The position numbers and the translations under genes are program-made. A stretch of 28,670 nucleotides of DNA from a virus. Where the stretch lies: positions 1-28,670 of the IMG/VR virus record IMGVR_UViG_3300032073_002450; one strand, 5' to 3'. Each line of letters opens with the position of its first letter. Within the stretch, counting starts at the first letter, position 1. This document shows, piece by piece, positions 2,809-27,369 of this stretch. A model generated the notes under the pieces. That model did no database searches. It was not told the DNA's origin and saw only the letters and a list, made by a program, of their open reading frames with translations.

Positions 2809-3380
2809 TTCTTCCACTGTCTAGCTAATTCTTTAATTCTATCTTTTAATAGTTGTTTTTGTCTCCTTTGAACAGCAGCGTTCTTCTTTTTACGAACTAT
2901 TACTGTGGATGAATCATCACCTGTGCCTGCTATATGAGGACCTGTGACTGTTCCCATATCCTCTTCAACTGCAGCTCTCTCAGCTTCTCGTTCTTTCTCA
3001 GCAGCCTCTCGTTCTTTATCTCTAGCCTCTCGTTCTTTAGCAATTTCATCTCTATGTTTTGCTCTTAAATCAGCTATCTCTTGAGCTCTACTTGCTGCGT
3101 CTTCTTTCCTGAGTTTCAATTTCTTCTCCCTCAATCTAGGTTCTTTTCTATTATAATGTTGAGTTACTAAAGAAAGATTGTCTTTATCATTATTCAATGG
3201 ATTGTTATCTTTATGATGAACATCTTTACCATCACCAGGTTTTGCTTTACCCTCTTTTTCCATCTGTCTACGAGCTCTCTTACGAGCAGCGTTTCTTAAC
3301 ATCTGTTCTGGTCTTGAATGATAGTTTTCTCTTTCTTTCTTATAATTTCTCATAAACATTTTCTGGTGTTGAATTGACAT
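2805..3380 (-). CDS. HNH-motif protein with long charged helix
   Basis: About 191 residues. The N-terminal third is basic and carries an HNH-like core: GKDVHHKDNNPLNND followed by NLSLVTQHYNR, matching the His-His, Asn and final His/Asn positions. The middle is a highly charged helix with Arg/Lys/Glu heptads, and the C-terminus is basic. A start at 3380 is chosen because GGAGAA lies 7 bases upstream; it overlaps the end of the peroxiredoxin gene by 41 bases. Later ATGs at 3359 and 3353 are possible. HNH proteins in phages range from homing endonucleases to packaging nickases. The long helix is unusual for a homing enzyme, so the role is open. Confidence 0.6.
   Translation of the reverse strand: MSIQHQKMFMRNYKKERENYHSRPEQMLRNAARKRARRQMEKEGKAKPGDGKDVHHKDNNPLNNDKDNLSLVTQHYNRKEPRLREKKLKLRKEDAASRAQEIADLRAKHRDEIAKEREARDKEREAAEKEREAERAAVEEDMGTVTGPHIAGTGDDSSTVIVRKKKNAAVQRRQKQLLKDRIKELARQWKK
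2983..3038 (-). repeat. Three 14-base repeats at a 21-base period inside the HNH gene
   Basis: On the plus strand, gcttctcgttcttt (2983-2996) recurs as gcctctcgttcttt at 3004-3017 and 3025-3038. The 21-base period equals seven codons and encodes KERE-type heptads, so the charged helix seems to have grown by in-frame duplication. Confidence 0.85.
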
Positions 3381-3813
3381 ATGGATCTTCTCCATGATTG
3401 TCTTCAATACCGTCCTCGGCGAACATTGTTTCTACTATACCATTATTTATAACAGCAGCGTATCTCCAACTCCTCATTCCGAATCCCAAATTGTTCTTTT
3501 CAACTAACATACCCATTCTTCTAGTAAAGTCACCATTTCCGTCTGCTATACATTGAACTTTAGTTCCACAAGTGTGTTCTTTAGCCCATGCTCTCATAAC
3601 AAATCCGTCATTGACTGAAACACAATATATTTCATCAATTCCTTTTTCTCTGAATTGATCATACATTTCTTCAAATCCTGGTAATTGTTTAGTTGAACAA
3701 GTTGGTGTAAATGCACCAGGTAATCCGAATACAATTACTCTCTTATCTTGAAATAATTCTTGTCCAATTTTTGGTTCTAATGGTTGGTTTAATGTGAGGT
3801 TTAATAGATTCAT
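3340..3813 (-). CDS. Peroxiredoxin (Prx5/AhpC-TSA superfamily)
   Basis: A 157-residue protein with the Prx5-type active site GLPGAFTPTCS; Cys39 is the peroxidatic cysteine, with Thr36 and a later Arg (in MRSWRYA) supporting it. LPGF and VNDGFVMRAWA segments also fit Prx5. Further cysteines at 64, 82 and 88 could resolve the disulfide. It would reduce hydrogen peroxide or organic peroxides using host thiols, glutathione or thioredoxin. The start has a good AAAGGAG site. The length is typical of the family and all key residues are present, so it is probably active. Protecting the infected cell from oxidative damage in sunlit water is inference. Confidence 0.9.
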   Translation of the reverse strand: MNLLNLTLNQPLEPKIGQELFQDKRVIVFGLPGAFTPTCSTKQLPGFEEMYDQFREKGIDEIYCVSVNDGFVMRAWAKEHTCGTKVQCIADGNGDFTRRMGMLVEKNNLGFGMRSWRYAAVINNGIVETMFAEDGIEDNHGEDPYVNSTPENVYEKL

Positions 3814-4795: not shown

Positions 4796-5188
4796 CTAGT
4801 TCAATTTAGCTTTGATCCTAAAACTACCTTGGCCACTTGTCATATATTCAATATTCATTGACAAGTCTTCTGGTATAGTTGGAACTAAAACATGAGTTTC
4901 AGCTGGATCTAATTTCTCTCCAAATTGTGATACTGGTAATGATAAACTACCCGATTCACCTGTTGTTTCTGGTCTATCAAATGTTAGTCCTAATTGTTGA
5001 ACTTTACCTGCTAATTGAGTTAAAGCGGCTTCAACACTCATAAATTCTTGATTAGAACATCCTTCTAACCATGCATTCACTCTAGTCTTAACATCTTCTT
5101 GATCGAGCATATGAAAATCAGCTGGGATATCAGATGATATCCCGTGTGATCCATGACTCTCTTTTACAAATGTTCTAAAAGATTTCAT
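4796..5188 (-). CDS. Hypothetical virion-type protein with capsid-targeting-like N-terminus
   Basis: A 130-residue protein beginning MKSFRTFVKES. This resembles the T4 internal-protein targeting peptide (MKTYQEFIAE followed by gp21 cleavage), with Glu10 as the candidate cut site. The remainder is unrecognised: residues 30-60 are helical, and 75-130 beta-rich and acidic. It lies at the downstream end of the virion-type cassette. Packaging in the head is inferred from the N-terminus; no enzymatic motif was seen. Confidence 0.65.
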   Translation of the reverse strand: MKSFRTFVKESHGSHGISSDIPADFHMLDQEDVKTRVNAWLEGCSNQEFMSVEAALTQLAGKVQQLGLTFDRPETTGESGSLSLPVSQFGEKLDPAETHVLVPTIPEDLSMNIEYMTSGQGSFRIKAKLN

Positions 5189-5200
5189 AATTTTATCCTA

Positions 5201-5794
5201 TTACGCTGATACTGTTATTGAACCAGCCGCTGTTCCAATCGCTGAACTATTAGTAATTGTTGAATTACTTGATGTTCCGGCATCTTTAATTGTACCAGAG
5301 TTCAAGTTCATAGCGTTAGTTCCAACAGTTAGAACATCACTTGCGTTTGTAGCTGCGTTACCTGCTGCTATCGCTAGTGTGAATACTAACTCATTACTTC
5401 CTGTTCCAGAAGCGTATGGTAAGTTGTGTGGTCCTCTACCTGAACCAGAACCTTCGTTTCCGTTAGTAATAGCTAAGTAAGGTACTCCACTTCCTGTATC
5501 GACATCAACTGCTTCGTTAAATCTGGCTCTTACTGAAAGTGAGAATCCATCTGATTTATCAGCGGCTGTTGTGATCCATTCGATTTCTGTTATGTCTGCT
5601 GTGCCAAGTGATGTTGTTAGTGAACCAATAGCCACTAAAATCTCTGGAGTAGCACTTGTGTTACTATTTCCAGTCATTGTAGAACCTGCTTCAACTGTCC
5701 ATCCACCTGCTGCTGCGTAGACTTCTTTCTTTTGTGCAGTAGTCAAGTGTTTAGGTTTTGACTCGTCTGCGTCTGTTGCTCCCCATAGTGGCAT
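5201..5794 (-). CDS. Virion structural-type protein with bacterial Ig-like domain
   Basis: A 197-residue protein. The N-terminus MPLWGATDADESKPKHL is a recurring start in structural proteins of marine T4-like phages (from memory). From about residue 80 there is a pattern typical of SWM-type Ig-like repeats of bacterial adhesins: VRARFNEAVDVDTGSGVPYL, then LPYASGTGSNELVFTLAI and LNSGTIKDA. Composition is rich in Ser, Thr, Gly and Ala, as expected for a capsid-surface or tail decoration. A late promoter (5836-5843) lies just upstream, and the start has a GAGGAA site. Confidence 0.7.
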   Translation of the reverse strand: MPLWGATDADESKPKHLTTAQKKEVYAAAGGWTVEAGSTMTGNSNTSATPEILVAIGSLTTSLGTADITEIEWITTAADKSDGFSLSVRARFNEAVDVDTGSGVPYLAITNGNEGSGSGRGPHNLPYASGTGSNELVFTLAIAAGNAATNASDVLTVGTNAMNLNSGTIKDAGTSSNSTITNSSAIGTAAGSITVSA

Positions 5795-5835
5795 TTTATT
5801 TTCCTCGTTATTTAAAAATAATTAAATTCTATATG

Positions 5836-5843
5836 TATTTATA
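5836..5843 (-). promoter_or_regulatory. T4-type late promoter TATAAATA
   Basis: A perfect TATAAATA on the minus strand, overlapping the last codons of the upstream gene. It would start a transcript about 36 bases before the Ig-like protein at 5794. T4 late promoters need only this -10-like element, recognised by the phage late sigma and clamp. Confidence 0.7.
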
Positions 5844-6294
5844 CATTTAGAATTTTTACATACTTATCAAAAGTCTTTTTATCCTTCTGCATGGCCTTTT
5901 GAACTTGTCCACGCTGAGCGGGTTTGACTTTCTCTAAGTTTTTGAGCACTCGTTCAGCATCTTTTTTAGATAGCTTAACTTTACTCTTATCATCTAATTT
6001 AATTTCACTGCCTCCCGCGAGGTCTGCAGCACCCTTAATTTGAACATACACATTTCTATCAGCTGTTCCCTGTTGACCTTTATTACCTTTATTATTAAAG
6101 GCGTCAACAGCAGCTCTAGTGATTAGTTCATCCTTAGCATCTTTGTATTTACCACCCAATTTGAGTGCTAACTTATCAATCATACTAAGTAAATCTTTTT
6201 CCGTTTTAGCTTTTTGAACTAAAGCGTATAGTAAATTATTACCTGCTTGTGAAGGCATTCCCAAATCTGGTGCTCTTCTGCCTTCATCAATCAT
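5839..6294 (-). CDS. Hypothetical lysine-rich protein
   Basis: A 151-residue basic, helical protein with no recognised family. It has a short N-terminal stretch (MIDEGRRAPDLGMPSQ), a helical region to about 70, a Gly/Asn/Gln linker (NNKGNKGQQG) and a Lys-rich C-terminal helical region. Its ATG follows the stop of the 932-codon gene by one base, so the two are made together. Its composition resembles the 932-residue protein, and it may be a related internal head component; this is inference. Confidence 0.65.
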   Translation of the reverse strand: MIDEGRRAPDLGMPSQAGNNLLYALVQKAKTEKDLLSMIDKLALKLGGKYKDAKDELITRAAVDAFNNKGNKGQQGTADRNVYVQIKGAADLAGGSEIKLDDKSKVKLSKKDAERVLKNLEKVKPAQRGQVQKAMQKDKKTFDKYVKILNV

Positions 6295-6295
6295 T

Positions 6296-6982
6296 TTATC
6301 TGACCTTGATATATCCTAACTTTCTCATCTTTTCACGAAAGTTAGTTCTTCTACCATCAATCTTATAAGATTTATGCATATCAACATCTTCACGATTTGG
6401 TTCAGCTCTAACTTCAATATCTCTCTTATAATTAGTTTTAGCTAACTGTTGTTCAGCTTTCCTTACATCTTTTTTGTCAACATAAAGAATATTTTTCATT
6501 TGAATACGAACAAGATCATGTTTAACTTTTACTTTCTTTTTAACATCGGCCTTCATTTTTTGTATTTGTTTTAATGACGGTTGATTTTTAATCAGTGGAG
6601 AAGCTTCGTCTACTTCTTCATGATCAGCTTTCCAATTCTTATCAATATAGTCATAGAATTCTTTCTCTTTCTCACCTGATAATTCAGATGGAGAACTGAT
6701 ACCAAATTTCTTCATTGCTTTATTGAAGAATGCTTGGTATGCTGCTTTATCATCTTCTGATAGTGCATTGAAGAATGGACTCTGAAAGGATTCGTTGGCC
6801 AATCTTAATGCGTTACTTACAGCTGGGTCGTCTGATAGACCTTTCTTTAATTTCTCTATAGCGTTAATAGCTCCAGTCATGTTTCCACCTGCGTATCGTT
6901 TATCCCAAACAATACCCATGGCCTGTCTAACTAGTTTCTTTGGAAATTTTGCTTCAGATATAATCTGTTTAAATGTTTTCAC
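6296..6982 (-). CDS. Possible internally initiated product of the 932-codon gene
   Basis: In the frame of the large gene, a GTG at 6982 has GAGGAAG five bases upstream, one of the stronger Shine-Dalgarno sites in the window. Translation from it would give a 228-residue protein starting MKTFKQIISEA, the form expected of a free-standing capsid-targeted protein. No TATAAATA precedes it. It may be a working internal start or a relic of gene fusion. Confidence 0.4.
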   Translation of the reverse strand: MKTFKQIISEAKFPKKLVRQAMGIVWDKRYAGGNMTGAINAIEKLKKGLSDDPAVSNALRLANESFQSPFFNALSEDDKAAYQAFFNKAMKKFGISSPSELSGEKEKEFYDYIDKNWKADHEEVDEASPLIKNQPSLKQIQKMKADVKKKVKVKHDLVRIQMKNILYVDKKDVRKAEQQLAKTNYKRDIEVRAEPNREDVDMHKSYKIDGRRTNFREKMRKLGYIKVR

Positions 6983-9094
6983 TTTTTCTTCCTCTATATA
7001 TTTAAATGTGAATGACTTACCTGTATGTTTATCTTTAACATTGTAAGTGTTCTCACACATTTTTAGAATAGGACCAACGGCTTTCATTCCGTCTGGTTTT
7101 ACAAATTCTATTTCTGATTCTGTTTCTAACGCTTCGTCTATCTGAGCTCTAGAATATTCTACTGTATCTAAAGGCTCTTCTGTTGTTACTGATTCTAATG
7201 CTAAAATCATTCTTTGTGTTTCTCTATCGTCAAATATATCATTTAATTCTAATATATTATATGTCAAGAAACCAGATTTACCAAGTGTTTTTCGTAATTG
7301 TTCTATTTGTAACTCTTGTTCAGTAATCATACCGAATGAATCACATGCTTCAACTAAATCATCTCTAGTCGCGTGTCTAGTGCCATATCCTTCTGTATCT
7401 ATACCAACAGCTCTTGGATATGCTTGTGATTTCAGTTTGAATGGTGATTTATTTGCCTCTTTCATCTTCATAGATTTTGAAATTTTCTTTCTTCTATTCT
7501 TTAAATACTTATCTGAATCGTCTGAATCACCGTCATTGTCGATATCATCATCACCTTTACCAACAGGGTCAAGAGCTTCAAGACCCATTCTTTTCATGTG
7601 TTTCTTAATTACTTCTCTTGCATCACCATTTGGATTCTTTTTACCAGCAACATACAAGTCATCAAACAATTCATCATCACCAATAAGATGATACAATTTA
7701 TCAGATGCGTCATCACCATCTTTACCAAGTTTAATTGGTTTTTTCATTAAATTTTGTAATTCTTTCTTTTGTTTAGAAGATTTTGGAAGTGCCCATGTTC
7801 CTTCTTTGATTTTACCTTTAACTAAATCGTCAAGGTTGTTATCTAACCACTGGTCAAACTCGTCTGGGTCATCTGTTCTAATTTCACCAGAGTTCAATGC
7901 CCATGTCATTAAATCATCTTCTGCTTTCTTTGATAATTCAAGATTATTTGACTTTGAAACTTTCTTTAATTCTCTACCATGTTTTCTCATAACATCTTTA
8001 AGTTTCGTTCCTTCTTGAATATCTTCTATCCACCGACTTTTCATCATAGCAGAAGGTAATTGTTGGCTGCTTTTATAAACAGCAGTTAAGTCTACTTCTT
8101 TAAACCTTTTACCTTTCTCATTAGCTGCAACAACTACCCAAGCTTGATAACCTAGTTCTTTTGCTTCAGGATCATAATCAATATTATGAACAAAAATCTC
8201 TGTTGATGAACTCATACCTGTTAGACCCATTTCATCATCTTTTATTGCCTGGAACTTAAATCTATTTTTCTTTGCATAAGTTTGTGCGAATTTTACTATT
8301 TTTAGAGCATCTTTAGTAGAGCATCTGATTTCAAATTCTCTCATTTTATACTTTGATGGAATAACATCACTAAATCTTTCTTGAACATCTTCGGCTTGAG
8401 CTCTAAGCTTTTTTGATCCATAATAGTCTTTAAGGAAATTCTTAGCTACAGCTAATGGTATTTTGTAATCTTTGGCTAACTCTTGAGCTGTAGCACCTTG
8501 TTGAATATCAATAAGAAGATCACCCATTTTACTTTCTTCAATTTCTTCTCTTACTTTTAGTGAGACTAATTTATCTTTCTTCTTAGAAACAACTTTCTTC
8601 CCTTTTTTAAGACCTTTGTATTTTCTTTTATCTTTCTCTGCAACTCGTCTTCTTGTTCCGTCCGATGCAATCCATTCATCTATTGTTTCGTTAAATGGAA
8701 AACCTTTTAAGGGTTCTTTATCAAACTCATGAGATGCATTTAATCCCATAACTTTTTGTGCTAGTTTAACTAATGTATTGACATTAGCCTTTTCCATCTT
8801 TTTCTTATTTTCATCACTAACTTTATCATACGCTTGTGTAATAACACTAGCAGTAAACATATCAATCATTACACCACTGACTTTCTTAGCACCTTTAGTC
8901 TTAACTATATTTTGAAAATCTGGCATTAAATTCTTTTCGTTGAGTTTTTGTTCAGCTACAACAGATTTGTCTTTTGTATAACCCATCTTCTCTGCTTGTT
9001 GAGAGTATCGTGATTGAGCGGGTTGTTTCTTTGTTACTTCTTCGATTGCCTTTCTAAGGTCTTTGAAGTCATTAATGACTGTTGTATTTTTCAT
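6296..9094 (-). CDS. Large modular virion-type protein (932 residues)
   Basis: A 932-residue Lys/Glu-rich protein without a catalytic domain that I can name. Recognisable pieces: a helical N-terminal module (to about 125) with a YDKV...NKK...LVKLAQKVMG pattern; a putative helix-turn-helix near residue 200 (QGATAQELAKDYKIP); a mixed module around 250-350; an Asp-rich EF-hand-like loop at about 520-535 (DDDIDNDGDSDDSDKY); and, at 705-714, VKTFKQIISEA, which resembles a capsid-targeting peptide with a gp21-type site (I-S-E, then A). A good internal start lies at that point (see 6296-6982). It looks like a fused precursor of head-internal proteins, processed on assembly; this is inference. Confidence 0.7.
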   Translation of the reverse strand: MKNTTVINDFKDLRKAIEEVTKKQPAQSRYSQQAEKMGYTKDKSVVAEQKLNEKNLMPDFQNIVKTKGAKKVSGVMIDMFTASVITQAYDKVSDENKKKMEKANVNTLVKLAQKVMGLNASHEFDKEPLKGFPFNETIDEWIASDGTRRRVAEKDKRKYKGLKKGKKVVSKKKDKLVSLKVREEIEESKMGDLLIDIQQGATAQELAKDYKIPLAVAKNFLKDYYGSKKLRAQAEDVQERFSDVIPSKYKMREFEIRCSTKDALKIVKFAQTYAKKNRFKFQAIKDDEMGLTGMSSSTEIFVHNIDYDPEAKELGYQAWVVVAANEKGKRFKEVDLTAVYKSSQQLPSAMMKSRWIEDIQEGTKLKDVMRKHGRELKKVSKSNNLELSKKAEDDLMTWALNSGEIRTDDPDEFDQWLDNNLDDLVKGKIKEGTWALPKSSKQKKELQNLMKKPIKLGKDGDDASDKLYHLIGDDELFDDLYVAGKKNPNGDAREVIKKHMKRMGLEALDPVGKGDDDIDNDGDSDDSDKYLKNRRKKISKSMKMKEANKSPFKLKSQAYPRAVGIDTEGYGTRHATRDDLVEACDSFGMITEQELQIEQLRKTLGKSGFLTYNILELNDIFDDRETQRMILALESVTTEEPLDTVEYSRAQIDEALETESEIEFVKPDGMKAVGPILKMCENTYNVKDKHTGKSFTFKYIEEEKVKTFKQIISEAKFPKKLVRQAMGIVWDKRYAGGNMTGAINAIEKLKKGLSDDPAVSNALRLANESFQSPFFNALSEDDKAAYQAFFNKAMKKFGISSPSELSGEKEKEFYDYIDKNWKADHEEVDEASPLIKNQPSLKQIQKMKADVKKKVKVKHDLVRIQMKNILYVDKKDVRKAEQQLAKTNYKRDIEVRAEPNREDVDMHKSYKIDGRRTNFREKMRKLGYIKVR

Positions 9095-9098
9095 ATCG

Positions 9099-9377
9099 TT
9101 AGTTTGAATTGATTGCTATACCGACAGCCATTACAGCTGCATTAGCTGCAAACAATTGGTCCGAAGGATCTTTTTGAATGATGGCTTCTTTTTGGCCATC
9201 AAGTGTGAATGTTCCTATATCTGTTCCACCAGATTCTTCTAGTGTTACTAAATATTCTGTGCCGACAGCTGCTGTATTGAACAGTCTAACATATCTGCTA
9301 GAACCAACATTTGATGCTGCTCCGGTAGATGTGCCTAAAGCGGCTTCAGTTGTAATTGGTTTCCATGGGGATGACAT
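9099..9377 (-). CDS. Small virion-type protein
   Basis: A 92-residue beta-rich protein starting MSSPWKPITTEAA, with SSRYVRLFNTA and GTFTLDGQKEAIIQKDPSDQLFA segments and an Ala-rich end. It resembles small structural proteins common in marine phages but no function is established. Two late promoter elements lie upstream, and the start has AAGGAG 11 bases away. Strong late signals and composition suggest an abundant capsid or tail component. Confidence 0.7.
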   Translation of the reverse strand: MSSPWKPITTEAALGTSTGAASNVGSSRYVRLFNTAAVGTEYLVTLEESGGTDIGTFTLDGQKEAIIQKDPSDQLFAANAAVMAVGIAINSN

Positions 9378-9402
9378 TGTAATTTTTCTCCTTGTTATAT
9401 TC

Positions 9403-9426
9403 TATTTATATATATCTATATTTATA
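9403..9426 (-). promoter_or_regulatory. Tandem T4-type late promoters
   Basis: Two perfect TATAAATA elements (9403-9410 and 9419-9426), 16 bases apart, lie between the stop at 9437 and the start at 9377. The proximal one would give a leader of about 20 bases containing the AAGGAG site. Confidence 0.7.
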
Positions 9427-9436
9427 AAGTAAAATC

Positions 9437-9817
9437 TTAGTTGATATATTTGTTAAATAATGCGTCTCTTGTATTAGTATATTCTGTATCGTCTTCTAAT
9501 TTCATCTTTATTAAATCTAATTTATGTTCAAAATCTCCAGTTCTTTCTGGAGTTGTTCCACTTCTATCAACAGGTTGTGCTGTTGTTTTTAATTCATTTG
9601 GAATAGTCCAAATAAATGTATCTGTTTCTTCTGGTGTTTGTGATGAATAATCATCAGCTTCAAGAGCTGTAAAATCTGAATCTTGATCTGGTGTTGTTCT
9701 TGTGTAGATAGTTTTCTTTGGTATAACTCCTTTATAGACGCCTACTGTAATTGTAATTGAATGAGTTTCACCACCACTAGTTCTCTGAAAATCGTATGTT
9801 GTATGAGTGCTTAACAT
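9437..9817 (-). CDS. Hypothetical virion-type protein
   Basis: A 126-residue acidic, Thr-rich protein with an N-terminal beta-rich half (HSITITVGVYKGVIPKK) and a helical C-terminal segment (HKLDLIKMKLEDD). It is unrecognised. The start overlaps the end of the upstream gene by seven bases. Neighbours on both sides look structural, so it may be a minor tail or capsid protein. Confidence 0.6.
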   Translation of the reverse strand: MLSTHTTYDFQRTSGGETHSITITVGVYKGVIPKKTIYTRTTPDQDSDFTALEADDYSSQTPEETDTFIWTIPNELKTTAQPVDRSGTTPERTGDFEHKLDLIKMKLEDDTEYTNTRDALFNKYIN

Positions 9818-10686
9818 GATTGGAATCCTGACCCATGATCAGCATATGCTAATTGGTGTAACCAGACTTCAACACTAGCTGTGCCTGATACTCCAGATAT
9901 TCCCCCAAAACCAAACTTAAATCCATTTTGGTATGTAGCATATCCAGATGTTCCGGGTCCAGCTTCTGATACTCCACCACATTGAACTCTATAACCTATT
10001 TTTGTTGAACCCAAGTTATTAGTGCTAATAGCTCCACCTGAAACTGTTGTCGTTGAACCACCACCAAGATAACCACCACCAGTTGTATTAGTTCCAGGCG
10101 TTACAGTCACAGAACAAGTTGTTGGAAGTGATTGACCTGTCCCTGCAGTTATTCTTGCTACCTCTGTTGCTCCAGAAAAAGCAGTTGTGGAATTACCATG
10201 ATCATATCCAAATGAATCACCAATCCAAATACCACTAGTAACTTCTGCAACATAAATTCTAATTGAACTGCCCACTTTTTGACAATATATATCATTACCA
10301 CATCCACTTACTACAAAACAACCCGTATTGACTACACTTCTTGTAGTTCTAACTGCTGGCCATGTATTATCACCTAAGTTTACCTGTCCGTCTGTTCCGG
10401 GATCAAATCCTACCCACTCACTCATTGAATGTGGTGCTGCGTTTAATCCATTTACACCTTGACCTTGTGCTGATGTAACTGTAGACCCACTTCTTCCATC
10501 TAAATCACTACCGTAATAGGCTGTTAGATCAAAAGTTCCATACTCTGAACTAGTTGAACTTGAATCAGTAGGGAAAGGTAATTTCATCTGTGCACCAGCT
10601 AAAGTTGATAAAGATAAATTACTATTACCTATTCCTTTCTCGGCTGCTATGGTTGAAAAACCTACATTAGTTGATGCGATTGTCAT
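9811..10686 (-). CDS. Probable tail/structural protein
   Basis: A 291-residue protein rich in Gly, Ser and Thr, with an N-terminal pattern (LSLSTLAGAQMKLPFP, then PHSMSEWVGF) that recurs in phage tail-associated proteins. The rest is beta-rich with glycine-rich runs (GGGYLGGGSTTT), as in fibres or receptor-binding tips. Six or more cysteines (such as CFVVSGCGNDIYC) are unusual for a cytoplasmically assembled protein. Its ATG overlaps the stop of the kinase gene by one base (TAATG). Receptor binding is inference. Confidence 0.6.
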   Translation of the reverse strand: MTIASTNVGFSTIAAEKGIGNSNLSLSTLAGAQMKLPFPTDSSSTSSEYGTFDLTAYYGSDLDGRSGSTVTSAQGQGVNGLNAAPHSMSEWVGFDPGTDGQVNLGDNTWPAVRTTRSVVNTGCFVVSGCGNDIYCQKVGSSIRIYVAEVTSGIWIGDSFGYDHGNSTTAFSGATEVARITAGTGQSLPTTCSVTVTPGTNTTGGGYLGGGSTTTVSGGAISTNNLGSTKIGYRVQCGGVSEAGPGTSGYATYQNGFKFGFGGISGVSGTASVEVWLHQLAYADHGSGFQSC

Positions 10687-11045
10687 TACTTACCTCTTAA
10701 TTTACCTATTCTATCTCGTTCAGCTTTCTTTGCACCTGGTAATAATTTCTTAGTTAATTTAGCAATTGCGGCTTTCTTCTTGTCTAATTTTTTACCTAAC
10801 TGAACTTTTTGTGAAATTGTTAATTGACTCAAAGGTATCCCTCCAGACAATTTCATAGCTACTTTATTTCTAGCCATCATACCTGCTTTCTTTAACATAT
10901 CATCAGGTCCTTTCATTCTCATTGCCTTTTTCTTTGCTGATCGTGCTCTTTTCTTAGCAGTCCTTTTAGCAACTCTACCTCTTGCTAGTCTCTGTTGCAT
11001 GTTTAATGCTTCTTGCATTTCAATGTATTCTTTAAATGAGTCCAT
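10686..11045 (-). CDS. Possible nested gene: basic 119-residue internal protein
   Basis: Inside the kinase gene and in its frame, an ATG at 11045 follows a perfect TATAAATA (11054-11061) by eight bases. The product would be MDSFKEYIEMQEA followed by the basic domain. The same layout, an ATAAATAC element just before ATG and a (M)xSF peptide, occurs at the start of the 820-residue protein (16570). It may be a functional nested gene or a relic of fusion. Confidence 0.5.
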   Translation of the reverse strand: MDSFKEYIEMQEALNMQQRLARGRVAKRTAKKRARSAKKKAMRMKGPDDMLKKAGMMARNKVAMKLSGGIPLSQLTISQKVQLGKKLDKKKAAIAKLTKKLLPGAKKAERDRIGKLRGK

Positions 11046-11753
11046 TATACTAGTATTTATATCCTCTTTTACTGACGAATCCATACCTCTTTTAACAGCT
11101 GCTATCCACTCTAGAGCTGATGCATTAGGTTTTTTAGACCATGTTGTCAACTTACCCGCCACACTAATATCTATCGAACCACCATTATTTACTATCTCAT
11201 GATAATCTCTACCCATTTTTTTCTGTAATAACTTTTTAACAGTCTGTGCGGATTTATGTGATTGTTCTACTACTCTTGGTGGTATAGTTCTAGCTCTTTC
11301 ATTGTTTCTCTGTAATGCTACATCTAAATCTGTTTGTATGAATATAGATTTTACATCATATCCAGCTGATTTTAATTCTCTATACATTCTAAATGTTTTA
11401 CCTTGATCACCTGATGTTGAATCAATTATAATACCCATTCTTGCATCAATCAATGACTTGTATCGTTTATCAGTTAAACCCTTAGCAGCCATTCTGGCCA
11501 CTTCTCTATCTTCTGTTTCGTTCTCTGGCATCTTTAATGATAGACCTTTTCGTTTCATCAACAGTTCAAAATACTGATCTGAATTAACAACTACTAATCC
11601 AAGAGTTTTAAGTCCTAGTTTCTTTGCAACATAAGATTTACCACTACCTGGTCCACCTGCTAAAATAATAGCTTTGAATATTCCGGGATCATTTACACCC
11701 TCGTCTAAGTCTAATACTAAGTCTTCTTCCTTATAATTAAGAATCGATTCCAT
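10686..11753 (-). CDS. P-loop kinase fused to a basic virion-type domain
   Basis: A 355-residue protein. Residues 28-190 are a P-loop kinase of the Zeta-toxin/polynucleotide-kinase-like type: Walker A GGPGSGKS (33-40), VVVNSDQYFE, IIIDSTSG and an R-rich lid (ERARTIPPR). Residues 237-355 are very basic (VAKRTAKKRARSAKKK) and begin MDSFKEYIEMQEA, resembling a capsid-targeting peptide. The start at 11753 has AGAGGAA six bases upstream; a start at 11813 would overlap the previous gene by 77 bases. It overlaps that gene by 17 bases. The kinase substrate (nucleic acid end, nucleotide or sugar) cannot be told. The basic domain may bind DNA in the head. Confidence 0.75.
   Translation of the reverse strand: MESILNYKEEDLVLDLDEGVNDPGIFKAIILAGGPGSGKSYVAKKLGLKTLGLVVVNSDQYFELLMKRKGLSLKMPENETEDREVARMAAKGLTDKRYKSLIDARMGIIIDSTSGDQGKTFRMYRELKSAGYDVKSIFIQTDLDVALQRNNERARTIPPRVVEQSHKSAQTVKKLLQKKMGRDYHEIVNNGGSIDISVAGKLTTWSKKPNASALEWIAAVKRGMDSSVKEDINTSIMDSFKEYIEMQEALNMQQRLARGRVAKRTAKKRARSAKKKAMRMKGPDDMLKKAGMMARNKVAMKLSGGIPLSQLTISQKVQLGKKLDKKKAAIAKLTKKLLPGAKKAERDRIGKLRGK
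11054..11061 (-). promoter_or_regulatory. Internal T4-type late promoter
   Basis: A perfect TATAAATA inside the kinase coding region. With T4 spacing, transcription would begin near 11048, about three bases before the internal ATG at 11045, giving a nearly leaderless message. Confidence 0.5.
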
Positions 11754-12906
11754 ATTTCCTCTTTGCCATTTGCATTGCTGTTCCGTGCATGATTGAATCA
11801 GCCTTGTCACCATATTGTTTTATAAAATTTTCTCGTTCTTTTTTAAGTTCTTTATACATCTTTTCTTTATATTTTAAAACTTCTTTTGGTAAGTCTTCTG
11901 CTTCTTTAACTGAGTTCTTTACCCACTTAACAATGGGTTCATAAGGAGTAGATATCTGTGCATACTCTCTACCTTCGTCTGTCCCCCACTCATGTTTAGA
12001 AGTATCATATATCTCATACATAAAGTCTGGAAAATCTTCTGTTATTCCCATACCTTTTTGAACAGCTTTGTATAATTGTTTACCAAGTCTATATCTTTTT
12101 GGTAATGCATCAATAAATTCTTTTTCTTGACTTAGACTTGCCATTTGTCTCATTTTAGAGGCTGACATACCTACATCACCTTCTGCATCTGGATCTCTTT
12201 CTCCAGCAGATATAACACTAATACTTTTGAAATTATAATATCCATGTCTCGCTTTAACACCATTATATTTCTTTAACAAATTATCAAATTCTCTAATTCT
12301 ATCTGAACCAACAACCATTTGTATCATTCTATATCCATCATCATATAAATCTACAACTACATCAAAAACTGTTCTTGCAGTAGTTGAAGATACATTGATA
12401 CCTCTTGGTAACATAGGATTCATAAACTTACGAATCTGTGCGTTTGTTAAAGGATTCTTTGTCTTATCTGTTGTATGAGAAGTGTATATTTTTACATCAT
12501 GTCCTTTAGAAATTGCTTTCATCTTTGCGGCTAACTTCATGTGTCCAACAGTTGGTGGATTGAATCTACCAAAACTAAATGTAACTCCTTTATCTGTTCC
12601 TTCTGTTATTTGATTGAATGATTTTAATTCAAGTTCTTCGAATTTGAAATCTAACATCTTCTCTATAGTCTTGTCTTTTTGTTTAGTATACCAAGCAAGT
12701 TCACCTGCTAATACTAATTTATCTGGATATGTTAAAGTATCAAACCATTTTTTAAAATCTTTATAACCTCTCTTAGCAAATATACGAGCTCTTTTGGCTA
12801 ACTTAAACAAATCTATATCGTTAAGTTTATTAACATCTTTTATCATGTTGTCAAAACCTTTGACAGCTAATTTTAAAAAGTTATCTCTATCTTTTTTTAT
12901 ACTCAT
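11737..12906 (-). CDS. NMNAT-like nucleotidyltransferase with N-terminal extension
   Basis: A 389-residue protein. Residues 108-270 form a cytidylyltransferase/NMNAT-type fold: FGRFNPPTVGH (113-122, the T/HxGH nucleotide-binding motif), MVVGSDRIREF and GMSASKMRQ, equivalent to the ISSTxxR motif. It would transfer AMP or CMP from a nucleotide triphosphate, possibly making NAD. Residues 1-93 are an extra helical domain, followed by LKSFNQITEG (94-103), which resembles a capsid-targeting peptide with a gp21-type cut after Glu102. The C-terminal 50 residues (FIKQYGDKADSIMHGTA) are a short helical motif seen in related phage proteins (from memory). The ATG at 12906 overlaps the upstream stop by one base and is preferred over a TTG at 12918. 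Confidence 0.75.
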   Translation of the reverse strand: MSIKKDRDNFLKLAVKGFDNMIKDVNKLNDIDLFKLAKRARIFAKRGYKDFKKWFDTLTYPDKLVLAGELAWYTKQKDKTIEKMLDFKFEELELKSFNQITEGTDKGVTFSFGRFNPPTVGHMKLAAKMKAISKGHDVKIYTSHTTDKTKNPLTNAQIRKFMNPMLPRGINVSSTTARTVFDVVVDLYDDGYRMIQMVVGSDRIREFDNLLKKYNGVKARHGYYNFKSISVISAGERDPDAEGDVGMSASKMRQMASLSQEKEFIDALPKRYRLGKQLYKAVQKGMGITEDFPDFMYEIYDTSKHEWGTDEGREYAQISTPYEPIVKWVKNSVKEAEDLPKEVLKYKEKMYKELKKERENFIKQYGDKADSIMHGTAMQMAKRKYGIDS

Positions 12907-14108
12907 TACTTGTCCCAATTCTTAGCTACAGTAAAGTTATTAAAACTAAACTCTAACTTATCTACTATTTTAACAGCTCCACCTGATTTATCAATAGCCA
13001 CATATCCTTCAGGATTAACAACTTTAAGGCCGTTAGGAGTCTTAACAAAAGTCTTCGCTAAACCCTTAGCTGAATCAAGTTGATTTAATAACATTAATTT
13101 GGCCTCTATCATATACTTAATGAAGTCAACTACTTCTTTTAATGTTGATGTCGCCTTTCTTATCTCTGCCAAATGCATTTTTAAATTCTGTTTAGATGTC
13201 GGTGTATCACCTTTATTCTTTATCCACCAGTCATTAAAATGTTTAAAATACATCTGAACTACATTACCCGAAGCTGGTAGTGATTTACCTGCTCTTGTAT
13301 ATGTATTTAGATAAGTTTTAAACCCAGCTCCAGGTGGAATTTTATCTTGCCATCTAAGAAATGCATTGAACTTTCCTGAATTTATTTTTCCGAATTTCTT
13401 GCCTGCGTTAGACAATACTTTAGTTACTGCAATTGTATCTTTTGCTGTAAAGGTTGCTCTTCCGGATACATCTTTAAATGTTGCATCATCTTGCCATACA
13501 TTAGATGAACTACCTGGTATCTTAGCACCAAAAGTTGCTTTTAAATTTTCTATTGAATCACCCTTATATGTTGTATGCCATACAACACCAATATTAGCAC
13601 TATTAATTTCTCTACCGATCTTTGAATCTACAGGGACAGCATACATAATCGTATTTGGTTGAAATGTATAATGTGATACACCATCAATGTCTGTAGTATC
13701 TACATCATCTGTAAACATTAAATCACCTTGAAGTATTTCTTTCATACCAAGTTTACTAAACTCTGCTAATGATACTTTAAGTTTTGCTGCTAGTTCACCA
13801 CTCTTATCATTATCAATATCTTCATCTGTATGATAATATGCCGTGTCTGCTTTCCTTTTCCTGAATAAACTTTTTGTGGCTACAAAGAATTTTCCTGTTT
13901 CAGGGTGTGGTCCGGCGAATACAGCTGGAGCTCCATCCCATTTGACTGTAACATTTAATTTTTTCTTTGAACTACTAGCGAACATATCTCTTAATGCTCT
14001 AAGAAAGTTTATAGAACTACGACCACCAGCAATACCAAAATTTAGAATCTCGTCTTCTAAATGTTCTAAGTGTAAATTTTTACCGGCTGCTTCTGTTAAA
14101 AATTCCAT
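12906..14108 (-). CDS. Ligase-type covalent nucleotidyltransferase family protein
   Basis: A 400-residue protein with features of the DNA/RNA ligase and capping superfamily. VKWDGAPAVF (motif I KxDG, Lys56) is followed by FFVATKSLF, a motif III-like ILQGDLMF, NPEGYVAI (motif IV, Glu367) and VKIVDKLEF (motif V). From memory it matches a family of unknown function (DUF6267) in marine T4-like phages. The start MEFLTEAAGK gives an L-T-E/A site after Glu6 that fits gp21 cleavage. Lys56 would carry AMP or GMP. No C-terminal OB-fold is obvious, so sealing activity is uncertain. Start and stop overlap the neighbours by one base each (TAATG). Confidence 0.7.
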   Translation of the reverse strand: MEFLTEAAGKNLHLEHLEDEILNFGIAGGRSSINFLRALRDMFASSSKKKLNVTVKWDGAPAVFAGPHPETGKFFVATKSLFRKRKADTAYYHTDEDIDNDKSGELAAKLKVSLAEFSKLGMKEILQGDLMFTDDVDTTDIDGVSHYTFQPNTIMYAVPVDSKIGREINSANIGVVWHTTYKGDSIENLKATFGAKIPGSSSNVWQDDATFKDVSGRATFTAKDTIAVTKVLSNAGKKFGKINSGKFNAFLRWQDKIPPGAGFKTYLNTYTRAGKSLPASGNVVQMYFKHFNDWWIKNKGDTPTSKQNLKMHLAEIRKATSTLKEVVDFIKYMIEAKLMLLNQLDSAKGLAKTFVKTPNGLKVVNPEGYVAIDKSGGAVKIVDKLEFSFNNFTVAKNWDK

Positions 14109-16570
14109 TATCCTTTATAACCCTTTCTTTGTGTATTTACTTCAACGGCAGTAGAGAATTTAGATCCTGATTTAGAATTAAATCCTGATGAACCGTATAT
14201 TGGTGTAACATTCTTTCCATCTATTTCTATGTTTTCAAGTAAAAATATAGTTATTGCATTATGTAATGCTCCTGTTTTACCTACTCGATTGATTTTGATT
14301 TCCATGATTGGCCAGTTAGCTTCGTAAACTTCTTCTCTCTTTAGTTTAGTGGCCACATCAGCTGAATAATTATCTCTTTTTCCTAAATGATCTATAACAC
14401 CTCCACCTTTAACAATTACAAGTGGTAACGCTGTATTGCCAAACTTAGCTTCTGCACTAACATCTCCAGACATACTTAATACAGCATCTGACAATCCATA
14501 TTCTAAATTTTCATAACTATCCATTTTCTCTTTAACTTGTTTTAGTATGTTATTAAGATAAACATATCCTATCCAATTAGAAGTAACATTAAGAACTACC
14601 CAAAACATTGAATACAACTCTGAATCTAATGTAATTTCATCACCTTTTTCGGGTTTTGGTAACTTAAATAATTTATCTAATTGTTTTAAATCATCTGCCA
14701 TCTGTAGAGCTTCTTTCCCTTCATTGTATATTATAGGATTAAACTTTCTGACTTTAGACTTATTTAATAAATCTACATTTGTTTGAATCTGTTTAAAAGT
14801 TCTTTCAATTTCACCTAAACTATCTTTAAAATCTTGAACATGACCGTATAAGTTATTATTGTATACTAACGGTTTACCTTTTCTAGCAGCTCTGAAAATA
14901 AATTCATTTAACATTTCTTCTTTTAATGGCATCTTCAATGAAGCCATTTCTTTAACAAGACCCTGTGCTGCTTTAACTTTTTTATCTTTCTTTATGATAG
15001 CGTCTGTTAATTTTTTAGCTTTAGAGGTAATAAACTTTACAATTTTCTTAAATACTGTTTTTACTTTTTTTACAAACCCACCAACTTTATCTTTAATTTT
15101 ATCTATGAGATTACCGAACATACCTTCTTCTAGAAATTCAGAAGGATCATAAGTGAATGTAGGGTTAATAATTTCACCTATAGTTTGCTGTGCAGCTGCG
15201 ACTGTTCTCAATTTACCTGGCATCCCTGTTCTGTCTAAATCTTTACCTGCTAGTTGAGTCCATTTACCCGCTCGTGCTTCACCAGGTGCTGCGTCTTTTT
15301 TCAATGATACTTGATAGAATATAATCTCACCATCAAGTGTTATTTTTGAACCATCTGAGACTGTTCTTTTAACTTGTTCTTCTTCTGATAATTTCTTTAA
15401 TTCTTTCAATTTTGATATTAGTGTTTTCGGTGTGCCCTTTGTTATGATAACACAATCAGCAGTATTCTTTTTACCAGCTACTGGTACTTGCCAAGTTTTA
15501 GGTGCAGCTGCATAATAATCTTCTATTGAATCCCAAATAAATTTACTAGATGAACTAACACCGTCTAGATTAGTTATATGTCCACCCAACTTGTTGCAGA
15601 AGTTATTCCAAATATCTGGATCACCACCTATATCTAAATATGCTTCTTGATACCATTGACCCATTGTTGTTATTGAAAGATCATTATATTTAACGGCTTT
15701 TCCTTTCTTACCCATTGGCGCGTTCTTCCATTCTGATTCACTTATTATGTTACTACCAACCATTCCCCATAGAGCGGCACCTTCAAAAATAGCGGTTCTA
15801 GCAGTATTTTCATTTGAAGGTGGAAGATAATCATCAATAGTCATTTGAACTTCTTCTTCTTCTTTAAGTATTGATTCTAATTTTAAATCAGGTTCCATAC
15901 TTGATTTTGAGTAATTATATAATGCTTTAGCTAAACGAACACCAAACGCTGTATCAGTTGGATAATGTGCTCCGGCGATTTGTCTACTCTCACCAATTCT
16001 TTTACCAATATCTAAAATATCTTTTCTGTATTCTAATGGAGCTTCATCAGCAACTAATAATGATATTAGTGTTCCTTGTGTTGCGTGGCCTGATGGATAT
16101 GAAGGTGAACCCGCTGTTTTTAATGGAAAGTTATCTAATGGTAATCCCAATTTTTCAGCTAGTTCTTTTGGTCTAGGTCTATTGTAGTGTCTTTTAAGTG
16201 ATAGGATTATAGGATCTGAATGTTCTTTCATTCTTTTTATTCTATCCCAATCAATATCGTCAATATTATGGCTTGATAGATAATCTTTAAATGGTTGAAT
16301 AACTTTAATATCATACATTATCATTTCATTTTGCCAATCAGTTCTAAATTGACCTAAAGAAATCAAATGTTGTATTTCTTTTTTAGTTTCCTCAGAAGAA
16401 TTTCTAGGGAAAGGAAATTGTAGCCAATCTTCTAAATCAAAGTATTCATATTCACTAGAATCTCCTTTAAGCATCGCCAATTTCTTAGAAGATAACTTAA
16501 CACTATGGCCAAGTTTATCTAATTTGTCTTCTACTGATTCTTCTTGGATTGTTTGTAAGAATGATTTCAT
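14108..16570 (-). CDS. PAP2 phosphatase fused to nuclease-like and other modules (820 residues)
   Basis: Residues 1-12 (MKSFLQTIQEES) resemble the T4 capsid-targeting peptide. Residues 40-222 are a complete PAP2/acid phosphatase domain: K126-x6-RP, PSGH (159-162) and SR-x5-H-x3-D (195-206), with His162 and His202 catalytic. Residues 255-465 are a second module with TADCVI and a distant FYQVSLKK, reminiscent of a PD-(D/E)xK nuclease core (weak). Residues 480-545 are a basic amphipathic helix region (FGNLIDKIKDKVGGFV), and 555-820 are unrecognised. Gp21-like sites stand between modules: IFEGA (about 261) and FLEEG (about 479). PAP2 enzymes dephosphorylate lipids or nucleotides, usually at membranes, but no transmembrane segments are seen here. 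Start context: a CATAAATA element just upstream. Confidence 0.75.
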   Translation of the reverse strand: MKSFLQTIQEESVEDKLDKLGHSVKLSSKKLAMLKGDSSEYEYFDLEDWLQFPFPRNSSEETKKEIQHLISLGQFRTDWQNEMIMYDIKVIQPFKDYLSSHNIDDIDWDRIKRMKEHSDPIILSLKRHYNRPRPKELAEKLGLPLDNFPLKTAGSPSYPSGHATQGTLISLLVADEAPLEYRKDILDIGKRIGESRQIAGAHYPTDTAFGVRLAKALYNYSKSSMEPDLKLESILKEEEEVQMTIDDYLPPSNENTARTAIFEGAALWGMVGSNIISESEWKNAPMGKKGKAVKYNDLSITTMGQWYQEAYLDIGGDPDIWNNFCNKLGGHITNLDGVSSSSKFIWDSIEDYYAAAPKTWQVPVAGKKNTADCVIITKGTPKTLISKLKELKKLSEEEQVKRTVSDGSKITLDGEIIFYQVSLKKDAAPGEARAGKWTQLAGKDLDRTGMPGKLRTVAAAQQTIGEIINPTFTYDPSEFLEEGMFGNLIDKIKDKVGGFVKKVKTVFKKIVKFITSKAKKLTDAIIKKDKKVKAAQGLVKEMASLKMPLKEEMLNEFIFRAARKGKPLVYNNNLYGHVQDFKDSLGEIERTFKQIQTNVDLLNKSKVRKFNPIIYNEGKEALQMADDLKQLDKLFKLPKPEKGDEITLDSELYSMFWVVLNVTSNWIGYVYLNNILKQVKEKMDSYENLEYGLSDAVLSMSGDVSAEAKFGNTALPLVIVKGGGVIDHLGKRDNYSADVATKLKREEVYEANWPIMEIKINRVGKTGALHNAITIFLLENIEIDGKNVTPIYGSSGFNSKSGSKFSTAVEVNTQRKGYKG

Positions 16571-18215: not shown

Positions 18216-19601
18216 TTAGTCATACTTTAAATTGTCTGCCTTTTCACTACTAATTCTTTTACCTGTTTCTGTCTGATCCATTACAGGTCCAATATCAACT
18301 AATTCATCTTGTGCTGATTGTTCACAATCATACAGTCTCATTTTAGCTCTGTCAACACCCAATACAAATCTTTTATGATATGTTGGATCATTATATCTAT
18401 TCTTTAACTGTTTAACCATTACTTGATCAAGTTCTTGCATGTCTTCTGTTGATATCAACGCGAACATAAAATCAGCTGTAGCGGGTAATCCGAATGATTC
18501 AGAAGTATCTTCAAGTCCAACATCTGTAGATACAAATCCTGTTCTATTTGTTTGTGTTGCTGACATAATTGGAACATCAAATTCAACTGCTAATCCTCTG
18601 AGTTCTTCTGCAATAGACTTGATATATGAATAAGTATTCACATTACTACCCGGTCTAATTCTAAATGAACTACAAATATTCAGATAATCGATATAAATCA
18701 TATCAGGTTGAAACTCTCTTTTTAAATCCAATTCTTGTAATAGATGTCTAAAATGACCACTATGTGCAGTCGCTGTAGGATATTCTTTAATGATTAATTT
18801 ACCTTTAGTCTTCTCTCTGACTCTTGTAATTTTCTTCTCATACATCATCTTAGGTAAATCTTGTAATTCATTTAATGATATATCTAATAGATTGGCGTCT
18901 ATTCTTTCAGCAATCTTTTCTTCGGCCATTTCCATTGTAATGTATAATACATTCTTACCTTGAAGTAAAGATGATGAAGCACAATGACACATGAATAGAG
19001 ATTTACCAACACCCGTTCCTGCCATACAGATATTCAATGTCTTATTCGGTAAACCACCTTTTGTGATTTTATTCATAAGTTCTAAATCAAAAGGTATTCT
19101 TTCTTCTTCTCTATGCATGAAGTCATATCGATCATTCCAATCTTCAATGAAATCATGACCAATATTACTATCAAAAGAAACAGATAATGCTTCTCTGAGT
19201 ATGTCAGGTATCTCTCCTGTATTCCCTTGTTTGTCTTGAATGATCTCAATAGAGTTCATTACACCATTGTATACTGCTCTATCTTTACACCACTTCTCTG
19301 TTGAATCAACCAACCATTCATCAGGTGTGTTTGTTGTATCTTGTTTGATCTCTCGAATTAAGACTGCCGTGTCTGATACTAATTGTTGATCCACATCAGT
19401 CTTTTCATCTATATCAATGATAAGAGCCTCTGGTGTAGGTGATGTTTGATACTTTAAGAAATACTCTCGAATTTGTTTAAATAGAAATTCTTCGTCCCTT
19501 TCACTAAAAAATTCTGATTTTATGTAAGGTAAAGTCTTTCTAATAAATTCTTCATTCTGTATCAGATTCTTGAGAATCGTCTGTTCTAATCGCGTTGCCA
19601 T
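18216..19601 (-). CDS. 41: Replicative DNA helicase (gp41/DnaB-like)
   Basis: A 461-residue hexameric-helicase-type protein. Its N-terminal helical domain (about 1-150) starts like T4-type helicases ([14 protein letters not shown]). The RecA-like domain has Walker A GTGVGKS (195-201), Walker [20 protein letters not shown] as the sensor motif and an Arg in the C-terminal region (KNRYNDP). It unwinds the fork 5'-3' and pairs with the primase that begins at the window's left edge. The gene overlaps uvsX by 50 bases, and its stop abuts the tRNA-Gly. The length matches T4 gp41 (475). Confidence 0.93.
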
Positions 19602-27339: not shown

Positions 27340-27369
27340 ATTATACAAAAAGTGTTCCTGTGGTATCAA
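27340..27369 (-). promoter_or_regulatory. Sigma70-type promoter with conserved spacer (class B)
   Basis: TTGATA (27364-27369), 18 bases, TATAAT (27340-27345); spacer with GGAACACTTTTTG. The -35 box contains the TGA stop codon of the cyclase gene. Confidence 0.85.

Follow-up and report, generated by a model that had tools for sequence, protein, structure and literature searches.

T4-type capsid-targeting peptides on enzymes encoded beside the replicative helicase of a Kyanoviridae-like virus point to packaging in the head

We analyze a 28,670-base virus record (IMG/VR IMGVR_UViG_3300032073_002450; the whole stretch is called the window below), which is probably a fragment of the genome of a marine T4-like virus, and we focus on the block of genes that runs from the replicative helicase gene (18216-19601) down to about 4.8 kb. 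We consider it quite probable that this block encodes proteins destined for the phage head, with peptides of the T4 capsid-targeting type directing them there, a protease of the T4 gp21 type cutting them, and the enzymes being injected with the DNA. What we see is, in our judgment, best read as a capsid-targeting and prohead-protease system that has been extended to enzymes and that probably includes two junctions of the polyprotein type. Three lines of evidence give good support to head packaging through such a T4-type peptide: the peptide is conserved across unrelated families, close relatives encode a prohead protease, and orthologues of the cargo have been found in virions by mass spectrometry. 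Gene content and best protein matches place the window, within the T4-like Kyanoviridae, close to Pelagibacter phage HTVC008M and Methylophilales phage Melnitz; its genes include a DNA polymerase, a UvsX-like recombinase and the gp41-like helicase, and a counterpart of the block adjoins the helicase gene in Melnitz, HTVC008M, S-SZBM1, S-SCSM1 and S-CRM01.

In the mechanism that we propose, tags of the form M-K-[ST]-F-x(2,3)-[ILV]-x-E would bind the prohead core in the manner of T4 capsid-targeting sequences. Enzymes caught in the prohead by their tags would be released when, as the head matures, the gp21-type protease cuts behind the tag glutamate; the NMNAT-like enzyme, the PAP2 phosphatase, the kinase tail and others would then remain with the DNA in the head and enter the host along with it. 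In the NMNAT and kinase open reading frames (ORFs) the tag lies between two modules, and cutting there would yield two proteins from a single precursor. NMNAT activity would raise nicotinamide adenine dinucleotide (NAD), and the kinase and an RNA-ligase-like protein would suit RNA repair. We infer targeting by the peptide and a benefit early in infection, and injection into the host would follow by analogy with T4.

The N-terminal peptides are real, and they occur on unrelated families far beyond chance. In a sample of 80 related (DUF6267-linked) contigs together with the window, we counted the motif K-x-[FY]-x(2,3)-[ILVFM]-x-E near protein starts and compared the count with a null in which residue order was permuted within families (500 rounds). 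The motif is present in 68 of 643 distinct N-termini (permuted mean 1.0, maximum 10 in 500), and in 6 of 79 families at least half of the members have it, where the null gives 0.07 such families (maximum 2): the 130-residue protein (17/17), two groups of PAP2 proteins (4/4 and 5/7), a 66-residue protein (4/4), the stand-alone kinase tail (2/2) and NMNAT-kinase fusions (12/20). With a strict pattern that demands two hydrophobic residues, 3 of 48 families reach half or more (null 0.1), a low count that reflects the many NMNAT and PAP2 tags with one residue fewer or with no second aromatic. A pattern derived from T4 IPII and IPIII finds three N-termini in S-CREM2 (0.10 expected) and three in S-SZBM1 (0.17 expected), counts that none of 2,000 shuffles reached. 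A preliminary description of this DNA had picked out several such peptides in the window; all of them are in place, MDSFKEYIE as a loose fit and MEFLTEA as a partial one, and the N-termini of several families in the related contigs supply more.

In the T4 tag, positions 4 and 7 direct targeting, and positions 8 and 10 direct the cut (PMC9026906). Aromatics at 4 and 7, isoleucine or leucine at 8 and glutamate at 10 are what we find in MKSFRTFVKE of the 130-residue protein, with valine at 8, and in many of its relatives; MKSFLQTIQE of the 820-residue PAP2 protein has no aromatic at position 7. Across the 130-residue family, in which identity to the window protein falls as low as 27%, K2 and F4 are kept in 18 of 18 sequences and E10 in 17 of 18. 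Nearly all relatives of the PAP2 protein start M[KQ]-[STP]-F; they come solely from IMG/VR contigs, a tblastn search against named phages having given no match. We also regard MKSFLQTIQEES as a candidate tag peptide, like MKSFRTFVKES and the NMNAT linker.

The NMNAT-like protein carries its tag internally. In its AlphaFold model a helical domain (residues 2-89) is joined to a nucleotidyltransferase domain through a low-confidence stretch (95-108), and the tag KSFNQITE sits in this linker, where the confidence score pLDDT is under 50 and disorder is predicted. The tag is one residue shorter than that of T4, and it aligns with the N-termini of relatives that lack the fusion (MKNFKEITE, MKTFKTITE, MKSFKDIVE and, more distantly, MKSFNKFLTEAK). 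Every one of the 26 aligned Melnitz-type NMNATs has the tag glutamate (E106 in the window), those with an N-terminal tag as well as those with an internal one, and 24 of them keep the phenylalanine. S-SCSM1-type NMNATs all begin with a tag (24/24). The extension of about 95 residues is patchy on the NMNAT tree, with 6 changes (gained or lost) of which at least 4 are forced by well-supported branches, and both phenylalanine and glutamate are intact in all 14 fused, extension-bearing members. We rejected KSFNQITE as a hidden translation start, since it follows a TTA codon, at which translation would not start; in three related contigs (L018, L019, L022) the residue before the tag is glutamate.

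As to function, GRFNPPT-GH is invariant in the 26 sequences and contains the (H/T)xGH signature of nucleotidyltransferases. The top PDB match of the model in Foldseek is a nicotinate nucleotide adenylyltransferase (NadD, 2.6e-4), and PPAT and glycerol-3-phosphate cytidylyltransferase follow closely, so the NMNAT substrate identity is only putative. Neither the NMNAT protein nor its profile nor the DUF6267 profile found a counterpart in PDB sequence searches, an absence that carries no weight. In many relatives (L041-L086) the NMNAT and the P-loop kinase form one protein of about 430 residues, with a domain order reminiscent of NadR; the window has a gene for each, and the two genes overlap.

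In the kinase ORF the peptide MDSFKEYIE stands at the junction with a basic C-terminal module. This module is a separate protein with a tag of its own in L042 (MKSFIEIFKE), in L070 (MKTFREFLED) and, as gene 17, in Melnitz (MKKFSELTSELIE). Melnitz also has a stand-alone kinase, which begins with MKTFAELQEG, and a tag-like junction before the tail is recognizable in all 7 fused members listed. The kinase itself is weakly similar to shikimate kinases and to T4 polynucleotide kinase. In the 932-residue protein, KTFKQIISE precedes a DKRYAGGN module that also occurs in Melnitz gene 21, where it follows ELDE, and in L037, where it follows KTFKEVLNE; these are the two comparable relatives. Residues 479-543 of the same protein match the virion protein S-SCSM1_92 (54% identity over 69 positions, E 5e-10). 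As an alternative to a junction tag, a GTG at 6982 directly before KTFKQIISE, with the Shine-Dalgarno-like AGAGGAAG upstream, could be an internal start. Homology to the true N-termini of stand-alone relatives argues for two of the three internal copies, those in the NMNAT and kinase ORFs, and it is for these that the polyprotein arrangement of the preliminary description appears to hold, and weakly for the 932-residue ORF.

A protease to cut such tags is found in the relatives. Melnitz, HTVC008M and S-CREM2 each encode a Peptidase_S77 (the T4 gp21 family) at more than 100 bits, and by annotation core proteins are present in relatives as well. T4 gp23 is cut at FLTE/A, where the slash marks the cut, and the N-terminal region of the major capsid protein contains FLSE/A in Melnitz, LLTE/A in S-CREM2, ILTE/A in S-SZBM1 and FLGE/I in HTVC008M. 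Tags that end in FLTE/A, FLSE/A or FLKE/A look the same as the capsid-protein cut site. Cleavage after the tag glutamate by the prohead protease is likely, and both the conserved glutamate and the conserved capsid-protein site bear on it indirectly.

Presence of the cargo in virions is seen at the level of orthologues, in published mass spectrometry. T4-GC190, the cytidylyltransferase encoded at the corresponding place in S-PM2, was detected in S-SM1 virions (PMC3037559), and the NMNAT orthologue in virions of S-SZBM1 (PMC9146016), S-SCSM1 (PMC9602691, and in GenBank notes) and S-CREM2 (PMC10665884). The last three begin MRFRQFIIEA, MKSFLQFLKEA and MKNFSSFLTEA, respectively, resembling MKTYQEFIAEA of T4 IPII and IPIII. 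In direct comparison the window NMNAT matches three of the virion proteins at 36-44% identity. A protein kinase is also reported by others for S-CRM01 virions (as cited in PMC10665884), and the block kinase of that phage starts MISFDQFLSEKK. In S-SCSM1, which has 45 annotated virion proteins in the whole genome, ORF89, 90, 91, 92, 93, 95 and 97 are among them, so that 7 of the 10 genes of the syntenic stretch ORF89-98 encode virion proteins (p = 1e-4; p = 0.007 for 7 of 17 when the borders are set more widely). Three S-CREM2 proteins match the strict pattern, an S-adenosylmethionine (SAM) lyase, the kinase and the NMNAT; all of them belong to the 52 detected proteins, and the 167 undetected ones include no match (p = 0.013; relaxed pattern, p = 0.003). 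Tag-like peptides in this phage include MKDFDSFLEE (SAM lyase), VKRFDAFLTEE (APH-like kinase), MKDLHSFLTE (gp13), MQTFSMFFSED (gp136, a detected virion protein) and LRFASFMAEA near residue 17 of the Cas9-like gp12.

The ligase-type enzyme fares less well. The 400-residue DUF6267 protein begins with MEFLTEA, a partial tag that has the L-T-E/A site and is without the K-x-F part; its family has no consistent tag across relatives, and it is not one of the proteins detected in S-SZBM1 virions. K56-W-D-G is invariant in the family, and RNA ligases, among them that of Naegleria, a fungal tRNA ligase, T4 Rnl1 and T4 Rnl2, and REL1, are numerous among the structural neighbours of the model at Z 5-7; the best Foldseek match has E = 0.06 and is not a ligase, so that the model is only suggestive of an RNA-ligase-like fold.

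The internal motif occurs at background rate (138 in 233,923 positions), and in the window also in three other, unrelated proteins, so we rejected the number of internal copies as evidence. Several observations weigh against packaging of tagged enzymes as we have described it. The NMNAT of HTVC008M (MKTLKELLRKK) is without the tag glutamate, several block proteins detected by mass spectrometry have no tag, and in S-SZBM1 one of four pattern-matching proteins was detected (p = 0.45), which brings the strict pattern pooled over S-CREM2 and S-SZBM1 to a nonsignificant p = 0.08. The window has no Peptidase_S77 match, but the control set gave none either and the fragment is without head genes. Finally, the S-SCSM1 and S-CREM2 authors note that abundant intracellular enzymes may co-purify, and they leave packaging versus contamination undecided (PMC9602691, PMC10665884). 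That these are cytoplasmic metabolic enzymes contaminating virions, with the peptide an ordinary amphipathic N-terminus, is nevertheless very improbable to us, since the same NMNAT was detected in four phages by four studies, a single motif is enriched on unrelated folds, virion proteins are enriched over the block as a whole, and the glutamate in the linker is invariant.

A different question is what becomes of the internal copies. The N-terminal peptides could be true head tags and the internal ones uncut relics of gene fusion, the fused enzymes staying whole; we hold this to be possible if somewhat unlikely. The background-level internal counts agree with it, as do the existence of closely related fused and unfused forms, by which some fusions may be recent, and the sequence of MDSFKEYIE, which does not strictly fit L/I-x-E. 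Relics would not be expected to keep phenylalanine and glutamate in every fused NMNAT, in a linker predicted to be disordered and despite the repeated gain or loss of the extension, and the junction before the kinase tail is likewise seen throughout the fused members listed. Alternatively, the peptides may be targeting and processing signals on proteins that serve as internal core or scaffold parts during assembly rather than as injected enzymes. The 130-residue protein and the kinase tail are tagged and have no recognized enzyme domain, and the same protease processes the core proteins of T4 (PMC9026906). We judge this unlikely, as the invariant catalytic motifs of the NMNATs suggest activity and the tags of S-CREM2 stand on enzymes of different kinds, such as the SAM lyase and the kinase. 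Packaged enzymes, with probable junction cuts in the NMNAT and kinase ORFs, thus remain our preferred reading, and the virus probably delivers them ready-made along with its DNA.

The capsid targeting sequence of the T4 internal proteins was reportedly described by Mullaney and Black in 1996. As here, IPI, IPII and IPIII share one ten-residue N-terminal tag, M-K-[ST]-[FY]-x-x-F-I-x-E, on otherwise unrelated proteins, and the system comprises a gp21-type protease and a core protein, found here in relatives (PMC9026906). In contrast to the T4 internal proteins, part of the cargo here can be recognized as enzymes, many tags have one residue fewer (F-x-x-I-x-E), module junctions inside proteins can hold a tag as well, and the block adjoins the replicative helicase. 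T4 Alt, an ADP-ribosyltransferase, is likewise a head-packaged enzyme processed by the prohead protease (PMC9026906), a likeness drawn from its description rather than from its sequence, and the enzyme classes differ. In the giant phage SPN3US (PMC5694885), gp53 and gp54 have an N-terminal region of about 100 residues before a cut after glutamate, and diverged head proteins start with identical propeptides, comparable to the shared tags here; unlike in SPN3US, some NMNATs do without the 95-residue extension, and a short T4-type tag comes after it. Another close system is cyanophage T4-GC190 (S-SM1, S-SZBM1, S-SCSM1, S-CREM2), an orthologous virion enzyme with a syntenic block in S-SZBM1 and S-SCSM1. 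The window NMNAT differs from it in its extension and internal tag, and the available portions of the cyanophage reports do not point out a targeting peptide. A literature search joining 'capsid targeting sequence' with 'cyanophage' returned a T4 head review only.

Table 1. Features of the block, in window coordinates.
Feature	Position	Strand	Evidence
Replicative helicase (gp41-like), synteny anchor	18216..19601	-	
820-residue protein with N-terminal tag, PAP2 phosphatase domain at residues 124-214 and large C-terminal part	14108..16570	-	Pfam PAP2, 28.3 bits, above cut-off
Capsid-targeting-like peptide MKSFLQTIQE, N-terminus of 820-residue protein; predicted cut after E10	16541..16570	-	
DUF6267 protein, 400 residues, possibly RNA-ligase-like; starts MEFLTEA	12906..14108	-	Pfam PF19782, 1.8e-93
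NMNAT/cytidylyltransferase-like protein, helical N-terminal extension of ~95 residues, 393-codon ORF	11737..12918	-	PHROG cytidyltransferase, 2e-50; AlphaFold; Foldseek
Internal tag KSFNQITE, residues 99-106, in low-confidence linker 95-108	12601..12624	-	
P-loop kinase (Zeta_toxin/AAA_33) fused to basic C-terminal module, 375-codon ORF; likely start ATG 11753	10686..11813	-	
Junction peptide MDSFKEYIE, kinase ORF residues 257-265, before basic module	11019..11045	-	
932-residue multi-module protein	6296..9094	-	
Internal KTFKQIISE, residues 706-714 of 932-residue protein, before DKRYAGGN module	6953..6979	-	
197-residue protein, phrog_11617, no tag	5201..5794	-	PHROG match
130-residue protein with N-terminal tag MKSFRTFVKE (5159-5188)	4796..5188	-	

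Other features of the block and its relatives are listed in Table 1 or follow here. The 197-residue protein is 43% identical to its Melnitz counterpart (L001 19824-20366). T4-like late promoter boxes were rejected as evidence, their total in the window not exceeding that of shuffles; TATAAATA sites precede the genes starting at 9377 and 5794, and CATAAATA precedes that at 16570. Outside the block lie a peroxiredoxin (3340-3813; Redoxin, 8.6e-27), similar to a protein directly after the kinase gene in L011, an acyl-carrier-protein-like ORF (2260-2475), similar to one between the PAP2 and DUF6267 genes of L016 (5557-5767), and, near the fragment end, an adenylate/guanylate-cyclase-like protein (27366-28610). 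In Melnitz and HTVC008M annotated cyclases adjoin curli genes.

Tag-like peptides also appear elsewhere in the relatives. A RimK-like ATP-grasp ligase of Melnitz (L001 82-1131) starts with MTQKFSQFITEE and is, from its sequence, a candidate for a packaged protein-modifying enzyme. Between the terminase subunit genes, S-SZBM1 gp191 and gp192 (L093 12311-13125) and S-CREM2 gp136 (L090 8802-9515) are tagged, the peptides of this region being MKSFKSFLSES, MKTFKQYITEA and MQTFSMFFSED. After the tag, unrelated cyanophage virion proteins (an NMNAT, the Cas9-like protein and the APH-like kinase) share a module of approximately AxxLGLxSDGHGxWxDxxGxxV, which may be a core-binding or DNA-binding box; it is found at L098 28820-30049, in S-CREM2 gp12 and gp14 (L088 7704-10313 and 10579-12846) and at L148 4678-7143 and 7399-7950. 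The 69-residue virion protein S-SCSM1 ORF93 (L098 31627-31836) ends with the motif KKRTFKEFLEYIE, and a C-terminal form of the tag may thus exist.

One could go further and suppose that Kyanoviridae heads come pre-loaded with a kit of the NAD- and RNA-repair type (NMNAT-, polynucleotide-kinase- and RNA-ligase-like proteins and a phosphatase), partly as polyproteins cut at tag junctions, which would counter NAD depletion or tRNA cleavage before phage genes are expressed; we think this extension quite unlikely as it stands. NMNAT and kinases recur in the virions of T4-like cyanophages, and a recognizable tag would separate cargo from contamination. It would also allow packaged proteins to be predicted from sequence across an abundant marine virus group, and protein delivery by phage heads would gain natural parts in these tags.

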